Shown here: positions 1,521-7,057 of the stretch, piece by piece
Numbering within the stretch: the stretch's first letter is position 1
Layout: each line of letters starts with the position of its first letter
NCBI GenBank assembly: GCA_022704585.1
Contig: JAKJGD010000105.1
Span: 1-7,057, forward strand
Origin: Spirochaetota bacterium
GTDB lineage: Bacteria > Spirochaetota > UBA4802 > UBA5550
Reading direction: 5' to 3'
Length of the DNA: 7,057 bases
Translations under genes and position numbers: made by a program
Notes under the pieces: model-generated
The model's database searches: none
Seen by the model: only the letters and a program-made list of their open reading frames with translations
What the model was told of the DNA's origin: nothing

Positions 1521-1586
1521 GGGGTCAGAGCATCCCCGGGGTCAGAGCCCCATGCCGGGGATCGGATCCGCAACCGGGGTCAGAGC
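1521..1586. repeat. Three copies of GGGGTCAGAGC
   Basis: The 11-bp motif GGGGTCAGAGC occurs at 1521-1531, 1538-1548 and 1576-1586, all in the same orientation. The middle copy lies in CCCCGGGGTCAGAGCCCC, which can fold as GGGG/CCCC around a TCAGAG loop. A perfect palindrome GGATCGGATCC (1559-1569) lies between copies two and three. The third copy contains the kinase stop codon (TGA, complement of 1580-1582). The pattern resembles small intergenic palindromic (REP-like) elements of the kind moved by IS200-like Y1 transposases; no transposase gene is in the window, so the class is inferred. Confidence 0.65.
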
Positions 1587-4072
1587 GACATCACCCGCGT
1601 GAGCTCACGCTCCAGCTCCTCGAGGTTGAAAGGCTTGGCCATGGCGCCGGCAAACCCGTACTTCGGGTAATCGACGATTATCGGGTCATCCGCATAACCG
1701 CTCGTCACTATAGCGCTGACGCCGGGATCAATCTTTTTTAAAACGTCGATGACCTTGTCGGCACCGATGCCTCCGGGAATGATAAGATCCAGGATGACAA
1801 CATCAAACGGAGTTCCGCCGTTTTTCGCTTCCTGGTATACCCGCGCAGCCTCCGCTCCATTGGCCGTCGTGACGACATCATACCCCAGATGGCGGAGGAG
1901 CTTGGCACCGAGGTCCAGGATGATCAGCTCGTCATCCATGAGGAGTATCCTTCCCCCGCCGGCTTTTTTGGCATGAGCGGCGCTCAACTTCAGTACCGCC
2001 TTCTGGCGGGATGCGGGAAGGTACACGCTGAAGGTGGAACCGGTTCCCCGCTCCGATTCGACCGCTATGTGCCCGTCATGCTTTTTAACGATCGAATAGC
2101 AAATGGCGAGCCCGAGGCCCGTTCCCGAAGACTTCGTCGAAAAATAGGGATCGAATATCCTGGGGATAATCTCACCGGGTATGCCATTGCCCTGGTCGAT
2201 TATCTGTATCTTTATATATTTACCATCCTGGAGCGGAAGGTGGTCCTTCTCGAGAACGACGACATTTTCGGCAGTGACGACAAGCTTTCCTCCGTCCGGC
2301 ATCGCCTGGCGCGCGTTCAGTATGAGGTTGTGGACAACCTGGGCGATCTGCCCGCGGTCGATGTCCGCGTCCCAGAGCGAATCGGGAACATCGCAGGTGC
2401 AGGAGATGGACGATCCGCGGAGCACAAAGTACGCCGTGTCCACGAGCAGGTTCTGGATCGAGGTGATCTTCCTGACCGGGCTGCCGCCGCGGGAAAAGGC
2501 CATGAGCTGGTGCGTGAGGTTGCGCGCCATGGACGAGGCCTTTTCCGCCTCGGTGAGTATGCCGTAGCCCGGGTCCTCGCGCGGGATCGTCACCTTCGCC
2601 AGGGATATGTTCCCGAGTATGGCCGTCAGCAGGTTATTGAAATCATGCGCGATCCCCGCGGCAAGGATGCCCAGGGACTCGATCTTGCTGACGCGCAGGA
2701 GTTCGTCTTCCGCCTGCTTGCGCCGCGAAATATCATGGGCGATGCCGCGCAGGCCGGTGACCGCGCCGGCCGAATCCGTGACCGGGTGGCAGCACATCTC
2801 GACCCAGAGCTCGGCACCGTCCTTCTTCACGAGCCGAAGCTGGTTGTCGCCGCAGATCGTTTCCATGAAAGACTTTGTGCTGAGCTCCGAAGCTTCCCTG
2901 CTCTGGCGGTGCCGGTAGAGGAAGTCCTCGATGTCACCATGGTAAATGAATTCGAGCATGTTTCGCCCGATCATCTCCTCCTGAGCGTAACCGGTGACCT
3001 TGCGCACGGCCGGGTTGACAAACAGGATGACCCCCTCCGGGTCGATGTTCAGCACCATGTCGTCTATCGTGTTGATCAGGTTCCGGTACTTGCGCTCGGA
3101 ATCCATGATGATCGTTTCCTGCCTGCTGCGTTTCTGGATCTCGGCCATGAGCTGCTCGTTCGCGCGGGCCAGCTCGGCAGTCCGCTCGGCGACCCTCGCC
3201 TCAAGCTCGATCCGGGACTTCCTGAGCTCGTCCTCGCACTCCGCATTCCTGGTGACGTCGCGCGTGACCGCCGTAACGAAGAGCGACCTGCCGCGGTCAT
3301 CGAAGGCCACCTTGCCCTGTACCTCCACGGTGCGCCACGAGCCGTCCCGGTGCAGGATGCGTGCCTGCAGGGAAAAGTCCGGGTTTGCCGGCCGGGCCGA
3401 AGAATAGGCATGGAGCAGGTCCCTCAGGCAGTCCTGGTGCAGGATGTCGATAATGCTCCCCCCTGCGAGATCGCTGTTCCGATACCCGAGGTTACGCATC
3501 AGCGACTGGCTGGTGAAGAGAATCGTCCCGTCCGTTGACAGGACGAAGAATATATCATTGGAAATCTCCACCAGGTACTGGTAATAATCGATGCACCTGA
3601 GGAGCGAGGCCTCGGACTTCTTGAGGTTCATGATGTCACGGATAACGCCAAGCGTACCGGTGAATTCCCTGTCCGAACCTTCCGCCTCCGAGTGGTACTG
3701 GCCGACGGCAATGACATTACAGCAGGCAACGATCTCCTTTTCCCTGTTCTTCACGATCGAGTGGTCTTTCGGTATGAGGCGGACCCTGAGGTCGCGGGTT
3801 ATCCTCTTTCCGGTGCGCCGCTCGTCGAACAGCTTCGGCGGCTCGGCGCCGGTCAGGGCGTTGACAACGAGGTTGTTTATGGCCGTGGTCCTCTGCACAT
3901 TATTGACATCGTCGGGATGGATCAGTATGCTGAAATGCTTGAAGATCAATTCCCCGGGCTCGTAGCCGAGGTTGCGGATCGAATTGTTGATGTATATGAA
4001 GTAACCCTCGGCGTCCAGCTTGTATATGATGTCCGGAAGCATGTGGACAATCGCTTCAAAATTCCGATTCAT
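1580..4072 (-). CDS. Soluble hybrid sensor histidine kinase (PAS-PAS-PAS-HisKA-HATPase-REC)
   Basis: An 830-residue hybrid kinase with no signal peptide or membrane segment, so it probably senses a cytoplasmic signal. PAS1 spans about 1-150 and has a long insert containing PPKLFDERRTGKR (78-90). PAS2 spans about 161-275 and PAS3 about 326-452. They are separated by a coiled coil (about 278-325) with the motif RVAERTAELARANEQL. The HisKA H-box GIAHDFNN places the phosphorylated histidine at H476; the HDFNN form is typical of NtrB-like kinases. The ATPase domain keeps its N box (HNLILNARQAM, N582/N586), G1 (DQGNG, D626), F box (FDPYFSTK) and G2 (GTGLGLA, 650-656). The C-terminal receiver (about 707-827) has D713/D714, phospho-acceptor D762 in VVILDLIIPGG, T790 and K813. 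All catalytic residues seen are intact. There is no HPt domain or output domain and no partner regulator nearby. The start has GAGGGG just upstream and a strong promoter at 4227-4256. The ligand is unknown. Confidence 0.95.
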   Translation of the reverse strand: MNRNFEAIVHMLPDIIYKLDAEGYFIYINNSIRNLGYEPGELIFKHFSILIHPDDVNNVQRTTAINNLVVNALTGAEPPKLFDERRTGKRITRDLRVRLIPKDHSIVKNREKEIVACCNVIAVGQYHSEAEGSDREFTGTLGVIRDIMNLKKSEASLLRCIDYYQYLVEISNDIFFVLSTDGTILFTSQSLMRNLGYRNSDLAGGSIIDILHQDCLRDLLHAYSSARPANPDFSLQARILHRDGSWRTVEVQGKVAFDDRGRSLFVTAVTRDVTRNAECEDELRKSRIELEARVAERTAELARANEQLMAEIQKRSRQETIIMDSERKYRNLINTIDDMVLNIDPEGVILFVNPAVRKVTGYAQEEMIGRNMLEFIYHGDIEDFLYRHRQSREASELSTKSFMETICGDNQLRLVKKDGAELWVEMCCHPVTDSAGAVTGLRGIAHDISRRKQAEDELLRVSKIESLGILAAGIAHDFNNLLTAILGNISLAKVTIPREDPGYGILTEAEKASSMARNLTHQLMAFSRGGSPVRKITSIQNLLVDTAYFVLRGSSISCTCDVPDSLWDADIDRGQIAQVVHNLILNARQAMPDGGKLVVTAENVVVLEKDHLPLQDGKYIKIQIIDQGNGIPGEIIPRIFDPYFSTKSSGTGLGLAICYSIVKKHDGHIAVESERGTGSTFSVYLPASRQKAVLKLSAAHAKKAGGGRILLMDDELIILDLGAKLLRHLGYDVVTTANGAEAARVYQEAKNGGTPFDVVILDLIIPGGIGADKVIDVLKKIDPGVSAIVTSGYADDPIIVDYPKYGFAGAMAKPFNLEELERELTRVMSL

Positions 4073-4330: not shown

Positions 4331-7057
4331 TTACTTGAAAAGGTCAAGTTGCATATCATCGGAGCCGGTTTTTTTCCGTGGCTCCCTTTTACCGCGTTTC
4401 AGCAGAGCCTCTTCCAGGCGGTCTAAAAGCGGGCTCCGCTCCTGGTTCATTATCCTGCCCTTTACGGATCGTTTTTTCGCGTGGGTGATATACAGGTTGT
4501 TTATTGTCCTGGTGACACCGACATAGAACAGGCGAACCTCCTCTTCCATTTCGCGGCCTTCCTTCGCACCGAAAAGCTCGAAGGGTATAATTCCTTTCTC
4601 GCAGGCAGGTATGAAGACAGTGTCGAATTCAAGCCCCTTTGAAGCATGGATGGTCATGATCGAGACAGCCTCGGCCCGCTCATCCCTGTCGTCCGCACCC
4701 ATGCGCAGGGAACCGGAACGGAAAAACTCATGGTACCCTCCCCCGAACGGCTCCGCGAAGGAAGTGAGGCGCATGATCGACTCTTCAGGCGCGTCCAGGA
4801 CCACCATGACGAATTTCAGCACGTCCGCGACGCTGTCCCCCTTCTTGATCATGCCCCAGATGTCGCTTATGACACCGAGCGACAGCGATGTGTCTTTTCC
4901 CGTATAGAATATTTTCTTGAGCGATCTCACTGCCCGCCGGTACGGCTCCTGCCTGAGCATGGATTCGGTCCCGGCCGTCTGGTACGGGATGCCGTGGTTG
5001 CGGAACGCCTCGGTCAGGGCCTCGAACAGGAACGATGAACGGCACAGGACGGCAAAGTCCGAGAAGCCCCGGTTTTCCGCAGCCGCCTCGCCGTCGGATA
5101 TGCCGCTCTCCATGGAAAAGCTGCGTACGCCGCCGATGGCCGCCTCGATGGTCGCCGCGATCCAGTCGGCTTCACTCCGGTCGGAGGGCATCTCCCGGAT
5201 ATGCACCTTTACATCGAGGTCCCGTCCTGCCGGTGCGCTCCCCTTCTTGAGTATCTGTCCCGCCGCGCGCATGACCGGGTCCGGGCACCGGAAGCTGCGG
5301 TCCAGGCGGATGACCTTCATGCCCGGGTACTCTTCGGCTATCCGTTCCATGAAGCGAGCGTCTGACCCGCGGAAGCCGTAGATCGCCTGGTCCGGGTCCC
5401 CGATCATGAAGAGGTTCGGGTTCCCGGGGCCGGCCAGGAGGGTAAGGAACTCGTACTGGACCGCGTTAATGTCCTGGAACTCGTCAACCAAAATCCACTG
5501 AAACCGCTCCCGGTACGACTGCAGCAGGTCAGCATGCCTTTTAAGCAAACCGGCCGGGACGGCAATGCAGTCGTCCAGGTCTATCGCGTTCATCGACCTC
5601 AGGGCTTCATCGTATTTTTTCAGTATATTCTTCACTTCGCCGGGGCTTGCGGTCCCCTGCTTGACGGCGCTGATGTCGCGTATAACTCCCGGCATCTTCT
5701 TTTCGTCTGCAACGAACTCCGCGAGAATCTCCCGGATATCGTCCTCATCGGCGATGAAAAAATCCCTCGTCCGGCCGGCCAGCTCGCTGTTTTCCCGGAT
5801 GATGCCAAGCCCCAGCGCGTGGAAGGTTGATATCGTTATTCCGCCGGCCGGCATGAGGCGCTGTATGCGGGAGCGCATCTCGGCCGCGGCCTTGTTGGTG
5901 AACGTGACCGCGATAATCCGCTCCGTCGGCACGCCCGCGCTCCGCACCAGGTGAAGGATTCTGCGTGTCAGCACACCCGTCTTTCCGGTGCCGGGTCCGG
6001 CTATGACCATGCAGGGGCCTTCACCGTGCTCTATGCCCTCGCGCTGGCCATCGGTTAGGCTGAAGCCCCGGTCCCGCGCGGTTGGACCTTCAGGCAGATC
6101 GAAGAGAAGCCGGGGCGCGCCGGCAGATATCGCAGTGCCGCGCAGGTGCCTGAACTCATCAATGTCAAAGGTCAGCGACGACCCGGCGCGCGGAGGCGCC
6201 TGCCCTTCCGCCGGGGCAAACAGGCTGGTACCTGAGAAGGACTTGACCTCGCCTTCACGGAAGACCTTGATCCTGCCGAACTCGCCGTCATAACCTTCCT
6301 CAATGAAAACATCGCCGTTCCTGAGCCTGCGGACCGCTTCGGCGATGAGCTCACCTCCCGCGCGCCGGATCTCGTCAATCGGCGCCTCCAGGAGGATATA
6401 AAATTCAGATCCCAGGCCTCCGATCAGGCGTTGGTATTCCTTGCCCACCTTCACCGACTTACCGCTCTTCTGGTTCAGCAGCTCGGCAAGCAGGTCCGGC
6501 AGGGCGGTTATCGATCGGAATTCCCCTCCCGGACCGCCCGGCTCACGCCGGTCAGCCAGCTCCGCGACTCGGTACATCACTCCCTTGGTTACCGGACGCC
6601 CGCACACGGGACAGACACCGCCGTGCTTCACGGTCTCGAGCGGGTCCCATTTGACGCCGCATTTCCGATGGCCGTCGTGGTGGTATTTCCCCTCCTGGGG
6701 AAAGAACTCTATGGTACCAAGGAACCCGTTGCCGTCCCTGAGGCTCCTTAAGATGCCGTCATATCCTGGTTCCGTATCGAACCGGTTGGCCTCGCGCCCC
6801 AGCTTTTCCGGGGAATGCGCATCCGAGTTCGATACCAGACGGAACCGGTCGAGCATGCTGCAGGCGCGGTTCATCGGCGGATCGCTCGAAAGGCCGGTCT
6901 CCAGCGCGAATATGTAATCTGTCAGGTCGTCGTAGCATTCATCGATGGTGTCAAACCCCGATTTGGATCCGAGCACCGAGAACCAGGGCGTCCAGATATG
7001 ACACGGGATCAGGTAGGAGCGGTCCGACGAATCGAGCACCATCTCGAGCAGAATTTT
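4331..7057 (-). CDS. EndoQ-type PHP endonuclease fused to UvrD/Rep-family helicase (5' end beyond window)
   Basis: The frame stays open to the right edge: KILLE precedes the first visible ATG (7040-7042), which lies inside a conserved block, so the true start and roughly 150-180 residues are missing. Numbering below is from that ATG. Residues 1-110 match the second half of the EndoQ/COG1379 PHP nuclease: IPCHIWTPWFSVLGSKSGFD (12-31), FALETGLSSDPP (45-56), VSNSDAHSPEKLGREAN (70-86), with metal-ligand candidates H15, E48, D74 and H76. A zinc ribbon follows (H125, C128, C144, C147). Known EndoQ enzymes nick 5' of deaminated bases and abasic sites. After a linker (about 280-327) comes a superfamily 1A helicase: Walker A AGPGTGKT (348-355), TFTNKAAAEM, STFHALG, DEFQD (520-524), GDPDQAIYGFRGSD (548-561), RLDRSFRCP (579-587), TIHASKGLEFD (797-807), VGVTRT (841-846). 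The C-terminus QLDLFK matches the sliding-clamp motif. The likely role is repair of deaminated DNA by nicking followed by unwinding (inferred). Confidence 0.92.
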   Translation of the reverse strand, partial: KILLEMVLDSSDRSYLIPCHIWTPWFSVLGSKSGFDTIDECYDDLTDYIFALETGLSSDPPMNRACSMLDRFRLVSNSDAHSPEKLGREANRFDTEPGYDGILRSLRDGNGFLGTIEFFPQEGKYHHDGHRKCGVKWDPLETVKHGGVCPVCGRPVTKGVMYRVAELADRREPGGPGGEFRSITALPDLLAELLNQKSGKSVKVGKEYQRLIGGLGSEFYILLEAPIDEIRRAGGELIAEAVRRLRNGDVFIEEGYDGEFGRIKVFREGEVKSFSGTSLFAPAEGQAPPRAGSSLTFDIDEFRHLRGTAISAGAPRLLFDLPEGPTARDRGFSLTDGQREGIEHGEGPCMVIAGPGTGKTGVLTRRILHLVRSAGVPTERIIAVTFTNKAAAEMRSRIQRLMPAGGITISTFHALGLGIIRENSELAGRTRDFFIADEDDIREILAEFVADEKKMPGVIRDISAVKQGTASPGEVKNILKKYDEALRSMNAIDLDDCIAVPAGLLKRHADLLQSYRERFQWILVDEFQDINAVQYEFLTLLAGPGNPNLFMIGDPDQAIYGFRGSDARFMERIAEEYPGMKVIRLDRSFRCPDPVMRAAGQILKKGSAPAGRDLDVKVHIREMPSDRSEADWIAATIEAAIGGVRSFSMESGISDGEAAAENRGFSDFAVLCRSSFLFEALTEAFRNHGIPYQTAGTESMLRQEPYRRAVRSLKKIFYTGKDTSLSLGVISDIWGMIKKGDSVADVLKFVMVVLDAPEESIMRLTSFAEPFGGGYHEFFRSGSLRMGADDRDERAEAVSIMTIHASKGLEFDTVFIPACEKGIIPFELFGAKEGREMEEEVRLFYVGVTRTINNLYITHAKKRSVKGRIMNQERSPLLDRLEEALLKRGKREPRKKTGSDDMQLDLFK
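4337..4351 (-). other. C-terminal QLDLF sliding-clamp-binding motif in the EndoQ-helicase
   Basis: Codons 898-902 (counted from ATG 7040-7042) encode QLDLF, followed only by Lys and stop. This fits the bacterial beta-clamp-binding consensus QL(S/D)LF exactly. It sits on a charged, probably flexible tail (GKREPRKKTGSDDM), the usual place for such motifs. Archaeal EndoQ is known to work with PCNA, so a clamp tether on a bacterial relative makes sense. Binding itself is inferred. Confidence 0.7.

Follow-up and report, generated by a model that had tools for sequence, protein, structure and literature searches.

An EndoQ-like nuclease domain and a UvrD-like helicase joined in one bacterial polypeptide with a clamp-type tail: a candidate excision repair enzyme

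Endonuclease Q (EndoQ) of Pyrococcus furiosus (PF1551, COG1379; PfuEndoQ) cleaves DNA 5' of a lesion, leaving a 3'-OH and a 5'-phosphate, and either strand displacement with flap removal or the action of endonuclease V (EndoV) together with a helicase has been proposed to follow (PMC4357722); the lesions that define this enzyme class are deoxyinosine, deoxyuridine and abasic sites. In a 2021 review the repair of archaeal EndoQ nicks is still called elusive (PMC8438529). In UvrABC-UvrD excision repair and MutSL-UvrD mismatch repair, incision is followed by strand removal driven by UvrD (PMC7690668, PMC7776575). Here we describe a gene in a stretch of 7,057 nucleotides from a Spirochaetota bacterium (assembly GCA_022704585.1, contig JAKJGD010000105.1; the whole stretch is called the window below) in which an EndoQ-like domain and a UvrD-like superfamily 1A (SF1A) helicase are encoded as one polypeptide. 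Unlike in the UvrABC-UvrD and MutSL-UvrD systems, nickase and motor stand in one chain and the nick would be made at the lesion itself. The fusion shares with PfuEndoQ the fold, the checked catalytic and gate residues, the zinc-binding domain and a C-terminal motif of the clamp-interaction type, but it has a helicase attached, its first predicted zinc ligand is His275 instead of Cys, and its motif is of the beta-clamp rather than the PCNA type and sits after the helicase. With the UvrD/PcrA/Rep 3'-5' helicases it shares the checked main motif residues and the fold over 538 of the 642 residues of Deinococcus radiodurans UvrD (4c30 chain D), whereas the 2B-like region of the window's relatives is short and their clamp-type tail is lacking in all seven PcrA-like proteins from genomes that carry the fusion. 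AddAB, AdnAB and RecB likewise join a nuclease to an SF1 motor, but the nuclease is of another class and these enzymes act on DNA ends, not on base lesions. Gabija GajB is also a UvrD-like helicase, but among the PADLOC matches shown it corresponds to the helicase half only.

The open reading frame lies on the minus strand at 4331..7057, comprises 908 open codons followed by a stop codon at 4331..4333, and runs off the window at its 3' coordinate, placing the 5' end of the gene outside. A protein search recovered P0001 (1053 aa, from a 235,929-base contig), in which residues 146-1053 match the window translation exactly; since the translation equals P0001 from residue 146, the gene starts about 435 bases past position 7057. 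The 145 residues outside the window open with LNFITDFHIHSHFS, and the HxH motif is therefore present. The first-pass annotation, which was made from the letters of the window, had read the frame as an EndoQ-type domain and an SF1A helicase in a single polypeptide, and had marked the N-terminal half of the PHP domain, with its HxH motif, and a possible assembly artefact as points to be checked. Domain and motif searches of P0001 bear the reading out. The metal site of P0001 is complete, which rules out a truncated or dead PHP domain, and an assembly artefact is ruled out because many separate assemblies share the same EndoQ-helicase junction. The fusion is a real, widespread and conserved two-domain protein with a clamp-type tail. 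To judge from its sequence it is most likely a repair enzyme, the EndoQ half of which probably cuts DNA beside deaminated bases.

Relatives were taken from 45 genome loci and from a capped protein search that scored 7997 candidates (E ≤1e-3 to frame residues 1-350; proteins of about 500 to 1590 residues), of whose 120 listed matches 119 carry the UvrD/REP domain PF00580. Conservation was read from an alignment (A1) of 85 rows, 74 of the 120 listed proteins and 11 of the 45 loci, and its invariance figures apply to this selected set, because the rows were chosen as full length. Exact motif patterns miss many relatives (among the 119 listed homologues GPGTGKT was found in 35, one zinc pattern in 76, DE-QD in 112 and one motif VI pattern in 68), and the alignment was used in their place.

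The part of the EndoQ-like domain that is visible in the window (residues 146-413; 6254..7057, minus strand, as are all features of this gene) holds the second half of the PHP domain, the zinc-binding domain and a C-terminal subdomain. Structure comparison matched P0001 to the EndoQ fold over 389 of 398 residues, showing the fold of the whole domain to be present; structure prediction and domain search, which the first-pass annotation had suggested, find an EndoQ-like domain and the PF00580 helicase behind it. In PfuEndoQ, Glu76, His84 and His139 bind an essential zinc and their alanine mutants, including H139A, are inactive, while His139, Gly169 and Ser171 exclude normal T and A from the pocket (PMC8307549). 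By alignment these five residues correspond to Glu94, His109, His165, Gly200 and Ser202 of P0001, all identical in 85/85 A1 rows; His165, a predicted metal ligand, lies at 6998..7000 and Gly200-Leu-Ser202 at 6887..6895. His8, His10, Asp193 and His195 of PfuEndoQ, which we take to be metal ligands from the PHP family at large, are identical at His8, His10, Asp224 and His226 of P0001 and likewise invariant in all 85 rows. Asp224-Ala-His226 (6815..6823) lies within SNSDAHSP, and the position of PfuEndoQ Asp193 is Asn in the EndoQ chains 7k30 and 7k31. The zinc ribbon claimed earlier for this part holds up, with the four ligands of the predicted zinc site, His275, Cys278, Cys294 and Cys297 (6602..6670), kept throughout A1. 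Among the 119 listed homologues SNSDAHSP is found in every one and a DxHIHS motif in 109; the remaining ten start downstream of the latter motif, as late-called starts or truncated frames. The VIA-align listing scarcely tests other relatives of the EndoQ part, because it is filled mostly with helicase chains. In G139, G151, G158, G169, G174 and G187, frames of 1242-1337 residues are matched by the EndoQ model in two or three pieces, which suggests that an additional stretch separates the PHP part from the zinc domain.

The linker (residues 414-477; 6062..6253) is mostly 50-75 residues long across the 85 relatives and is of low confidence in the structure model (residues 456-476 with a predicted local distance difference test score, pLDDT, below 50). 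It leads into the SF1A helicase (residues 478-1037; 4382..6061), identified by PF00580 (229 bits vs 23) and its motifs, with the Walker A Lys504 at 5981-5983, motif II DEFQD at 5471-5485 and the motif VI Arg995 at 4508-4510. The claim of a full SF1A helicase with intact motifs is confirmed by 22 of 24 checked motif positions being identical in all A1 rows, including Lys504, Asp670, Glu671, Gln673, Asp674, Gln702, Arg708, Arg735, His949 and Arg995; the two that vary are Gln483 (kept in 83/85) and Thr947 (84/85). Against the PcrA, UvrD and Rep equivalogs of NCBIfam P0001 scores 322.1, 256.2 and 323.7 bits, below their cut-offs of 911.2, 1144.45 and 951.45.

P0001 ends in SDDMQLDLFK, and the tail (residues 1041-1053, pLDDT <50) contains QLDLF at residues 1048-1052 (4337..4351), a motif that resembles what we take to be the bacterial beta-clamp consensus. 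This tail is likely a hook for the sliding clamp. A PIP (PCNA-interacting protein) box of archaeal EndoQ is required for binding and stimulation by PCNA, and beta-clamp motifs have been noted in bacterial EndoQ homologues (PMC4858679). Using a strict pattern (QLxLF) and a relaxed one, both written after the tails had been inspected, we found the motif in the last 30 residues of 85/119 and 115/119 listed homologues, respectively (P0022, a protein of 538 aa with no helicase domain, was left out); the four without the relaxed motif are short proteins of 554, 706, 761 and 906 aa. Internal 30-residue windows gave 1/3947 strict and 7/3947 relaxed matches, and shuffled tails (n=23,800) gave 0.14% and 1.9%. 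Among fused genome loci whose 3' end is complete the relaxed motif is present in 16/16 and the strict one in 11/16, compared with 2/173 (relaxed) for other frames of at least 300 residues in the same loci, a control which excluded frames holding SNSDAHSP or GPGTGKT and in which one of the two hits (L033) is itself a fusion missed by the filter. The motif was found in 0/7 PcrA-like helicases of carrier genomes and in 0/5 shorter UvrD-like proteins. Single-domain EndoQ proteins have the relaxed motif in 7/28 and the strict one in 3/28, and several others end similarly, for example in QLGIDF.

Fusions turn out to be common. EndoQ and helicase sequence share a single frame in 20 of the 45 genome loci, of which two (L002, L018) are broken in the EndoQ part and one (L033) begins at the locus end. 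The taxonomic survey that the first-pass annotation had recommended places fused loci in eight named phyla, Spirochaetota, Planctomycetota, Chloroflexota, Acidobacteriota, Calditrichota, Thermodesulfobacteriota, Balneolota and Latescibacterota, and in bacteria without a phylum name. In 98 relatives of Spirochaetes bacterium RBG_13_51_14 (G001), the NCBIfam hypothetical equivalog TIGR00375 matches in 35, with 25 of these matches lying in frames of 850 residues or longer and a further one in a frame of 756 residues; in 116 relatives of Desulfocicer vacuolatum (G008) it matches in 108, of which 94 have the match in a frame of 850 residues or longer, and it also matches in 3/14 control genomes. 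P0001 is matched at 1e-60 or better in 107 of the 116 G008 relatives. In 87 of the 116 one unbroken alignment extends beyond the Walker A lysine (reaching at least residue 547), and these are plainly fused; four more (G247, G174, G151, G169) pass this lysine in two segments that lie in frames of equal length on one contig, and in G242, G227 and G232 the alignment is interrupted by one stop codon, which in G227 (locus L061) and G232 (L063) is a single TAA near the linker and may reflect either a real separation or a sequencing error. These counts change the view of EndoQ as mainly archaeal with a few bacterial cases. The expectation that such fusions are filed under helicase names proved right, the listed relatives, where the sources give a name, being called 'UvrD-helicase domain-containing protein', 'DNA helicase II / PcrA', 'TIGR00375 family' or hypothetical protein, and many fusion proteins stand in databases under the helicase names. 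Several EndoQ-length proteins with no listed helicase domain are also named 'DNA helicase UvrD' or PcrA; these names were perhaps transferred from the fused form, or the proteins are its fragments.

In four loci a separate helicase frame directly follows the EndoQ frame. The stop-to-stop frames of the two differ and overlap in L019 and L060, and they are one and the same frame with one stop between in L061 and L063. The relaxed tail motif is on the helicase in 4/4 of these pairs and on the EndoQ half in 0/4, although the EndoQ half of L019 has a similar QASLF at its end. For 73 EndoQ domains a quick maximum-likelihood tree was built and rooted on the very long PfuEndoQ branch, leaving out the distant rows L071-L076 and rows with fewer than 330 aligned query residues; six of its single-domain P rows had no check for contig ends, and L067 and L070 stop where their contigs do. 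A group of 50 (Shimodaira-Hasegawa-like approximate likelihood ratio test 97) unites all 33 fused rows, the four neighbouring ones and 13 of the 35 with a single domain, while PfuEndoQ and the remaining 22 fall outside. The tree requires 12 switches between the linked and the single state. One old fusion followed by separations and losses is the simplest reading of these relationships, which the tree does not prove. In a helicase tree, in which the fused row L002 was labelled 'other' by a length filter, seven PcrA-like rows from carrier genomes cluster together (99) and the fusion helicases are separate from them; this tree does not prove a single origin, because it has just seven PcrA-like rows and no deep outgroup. 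The tail motif, the commonness of the fusion and the unfused neighbouring pairs all lie outside the account given by the first-pass annotation. A second fusion partner was sought in L025 and L037, and at E 0.01 Pfam adds no domain to either of the two long frames; both are therefore probably overlong stop-to-stop frames. L071-L076, in G001 relatives, are distant EndoQ-like proteins of about 430-495 residues with 28-35% identity, several of which start with LDLHSHSGYSGGVG or similarly, and they are possibly a separate EndoQ-like subfamily.

Complete domains, intact residues, the fold, wide occurrence, linkage of unfused genes in some loci and a conserved tail are the computed support for our favoured reading, which we hold with moderate confidence, that the gene encodes one enzyme by which deaminated or abasic nucleotides are removed in an alternative form of excision repair. 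The QLDLF tail would tether the enzyme to the beta sliding clamp, much as the PIP box links archaeal EndoQ to PCNA, and the SF1A motor would load at the EndoQ nick onto the undamaged strand, as expected from the polarity of the UvrD family. Running 3' to 5' on this strand, away from the nick and across the lesion, the motor would peel off the damaged strand starting at its 5' end; the displaced lesion would then be a flap for cellular 5' nucleases, a polymerase would extend from the 3'-OH and ligase would seal. The direction of unwinding is deduced from this geometry and from UvrD polarity (PMC7776575). By analogy, nicking followed by unwinding is well motivated by the conserved residues and by published work on P. 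furiosus EndoQ and on UvrD, and the fusion with its tail names a concrete answer to the question of how EndoQ nicks are repaired, in an enzyme whose predicted incision, strand removal and clamp recruitment would be separable by single mutations. A wider proposal is more tentative and, in our estimate, falls a little short of even: many bacterial lineages may share a one-chain counterpart of UvrABC-UvrD and MutSL-UvrD, a clamp-tethered lesion nickase with its own strand-removal helicase, which would be standard equipment in some groups and would go back to a single old fusion that was followed by separations and losses, the clamp motif being kept on the helicase. The parts of the fusion are known, and their combination appears to be undescribed in the literature searched; no description of an EndoQ-helicase fusion was found in open-licence PubMed Central (PMC) full text, while the subscription literature, mostly outside this search, may hold one. 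The Desulfovibrio homologue named in PMC4357722 may itself be fused.

Several observations weigh against this reading of the fusion as a repair enzyme. The EndoQ part of P0001 is only 34% identical to the characterised PfuEndoQ (125/372 aligned), and it scores 141 bits against TIGR00375, below the cut-off of 326.6, and is therefore classed as EndoQ-like and not as a TIGR00375 equivalog; the unfused EndoQ of L019 scores 170 bits, and the cut-off is reached in 0/45, 0/98 and 0/116 genomes vs 2/14 control genomes. The nuclease may work without the helicase, because no helicase was seen near the EndoQ of L017 (whole 10.8-kb locus) or of L062, L064, L065 and L066 (about 2.5 kb downstream), all of the same group. 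Nor is the fusion enzyme the sole route, because a PcrA-like helicase frame (608-798 residues) is present elsewhere in 8/9 carrier genomes (for the ninth, G007, just a piece of 163 residues and a RecB-sized frame are listed) and uracil-DNA glycosylase (UDG) is found in 95/98 G001 relatives. The direction of the helicase, ATP-driven 3'-5' unwinding, is carried over from the UvrD family, and its behaviour could differ because the 2B-like region is short in P0001 (90 residues vs 151-163 in L012, L013, L014, L016 and L044); this may alter the control of unwinding.

Another, unlikely order of events is that the helicase acts first, the motor scanning and opening the duplex so that EndoQ cuts exposed lesions in single strands or bubbles, in which case it would serve the search and not strand removal; the position of the EndoQ domain N-terminal to the motor, behind a low-confidence linker, would suit this. 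However, UvrD-type motors usually require a nick or a single-stranded start, consistent with nicking first, and the clamp-type tail suggests that the enzyme is brought in by the clamp instead of scanning freely. EndoQ does cut uracil and hypoxanthine in single-stranded DNA efficiently, and helix instability at the damage favours cleavage, but single-stranded abasic-site analogues are poor substrates (PMC11354406). Somewhat less likely still is a changed substrate, with the EndoQ-like domain acting on another lesion or an end structure, or as a general PHP phosphodiesterase, and the pair doing a different repair or replication-restart job. Against it, the lesions cut by the P. furiosus enzyme are also those cut by its EndoQ homologues in T. 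kodakarensis, M. acetivorans and B. pumilus (PMC8438529, PMC6202378). The low identity to PfuEndoQ, the His as first zinc ligand, the unmet NCBIfam cut-off and the lack of biochemistry on the fused form in the open-licence PMC literature searched would fit such a change, against which stand the unchanged gate and catalytic residues in all A1 rows and the nearly complete fold match. An anti-phage defence enzyme directed against uracil-bearing or damaged phage DNA is very improbable and the candidate is disfavoured: defence genes are typically patchy in distribution, whereas EndoQ is matched in nearly all G008 relatives, with neighbours kept across some species and a single strong EndoQ place in most genomes, and the best 25 of 53 PADLOC matches of P0001 are confined to the helicase half. 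In favour of such a role are the likeness of this half to GajB and to a second defence helicase model, and the suggestion that Bacillus EndoQ serves in defence as well as in repair (PMC8307549).

Turning from these alternatives to the genomes around the proposed excision repair enzyme, a P0001 search of the nine carrier genomes found one EndoQ place in each (in two pieces in both broken ones). Replacement of UDG by the fusion is ruled out by the frequency of UDG given above. EndoV is present in 1/26 G001 relatives with an EndoQ frame of at least 700 aa vs 19/72 others (Fisher p 0.02), and the G008 relatives show no pattern (9/108 with EndoQ vs 1/8 without, p 0.53); since the former difference may be kinship, no conclusion on EndoV replacement is drawn. 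An operon with repair genes was also considered, and none is seen after the fusion gene in the window, where the neighbours, all on the minus strand, are a PAS sensor histidine kinase with a response-regulator domain (1580-4072), a TetR regulator (796-1410) and part of a CoA-binding synthetase (1-711). As to a GajA partner of the Gabija kind, Pfam finds no nuclease family in these three neighbours, the PADLOC scan covered P0001, and genes upstream of the fusion lie outside the window. For six loci the flanking frames were compared by eye from their opening residues, without a family search; by this measure the kinase comes after the fusion again in L001 and L003, the TetR and synthetase genes do so in L004, and the synthetase gene in L005.

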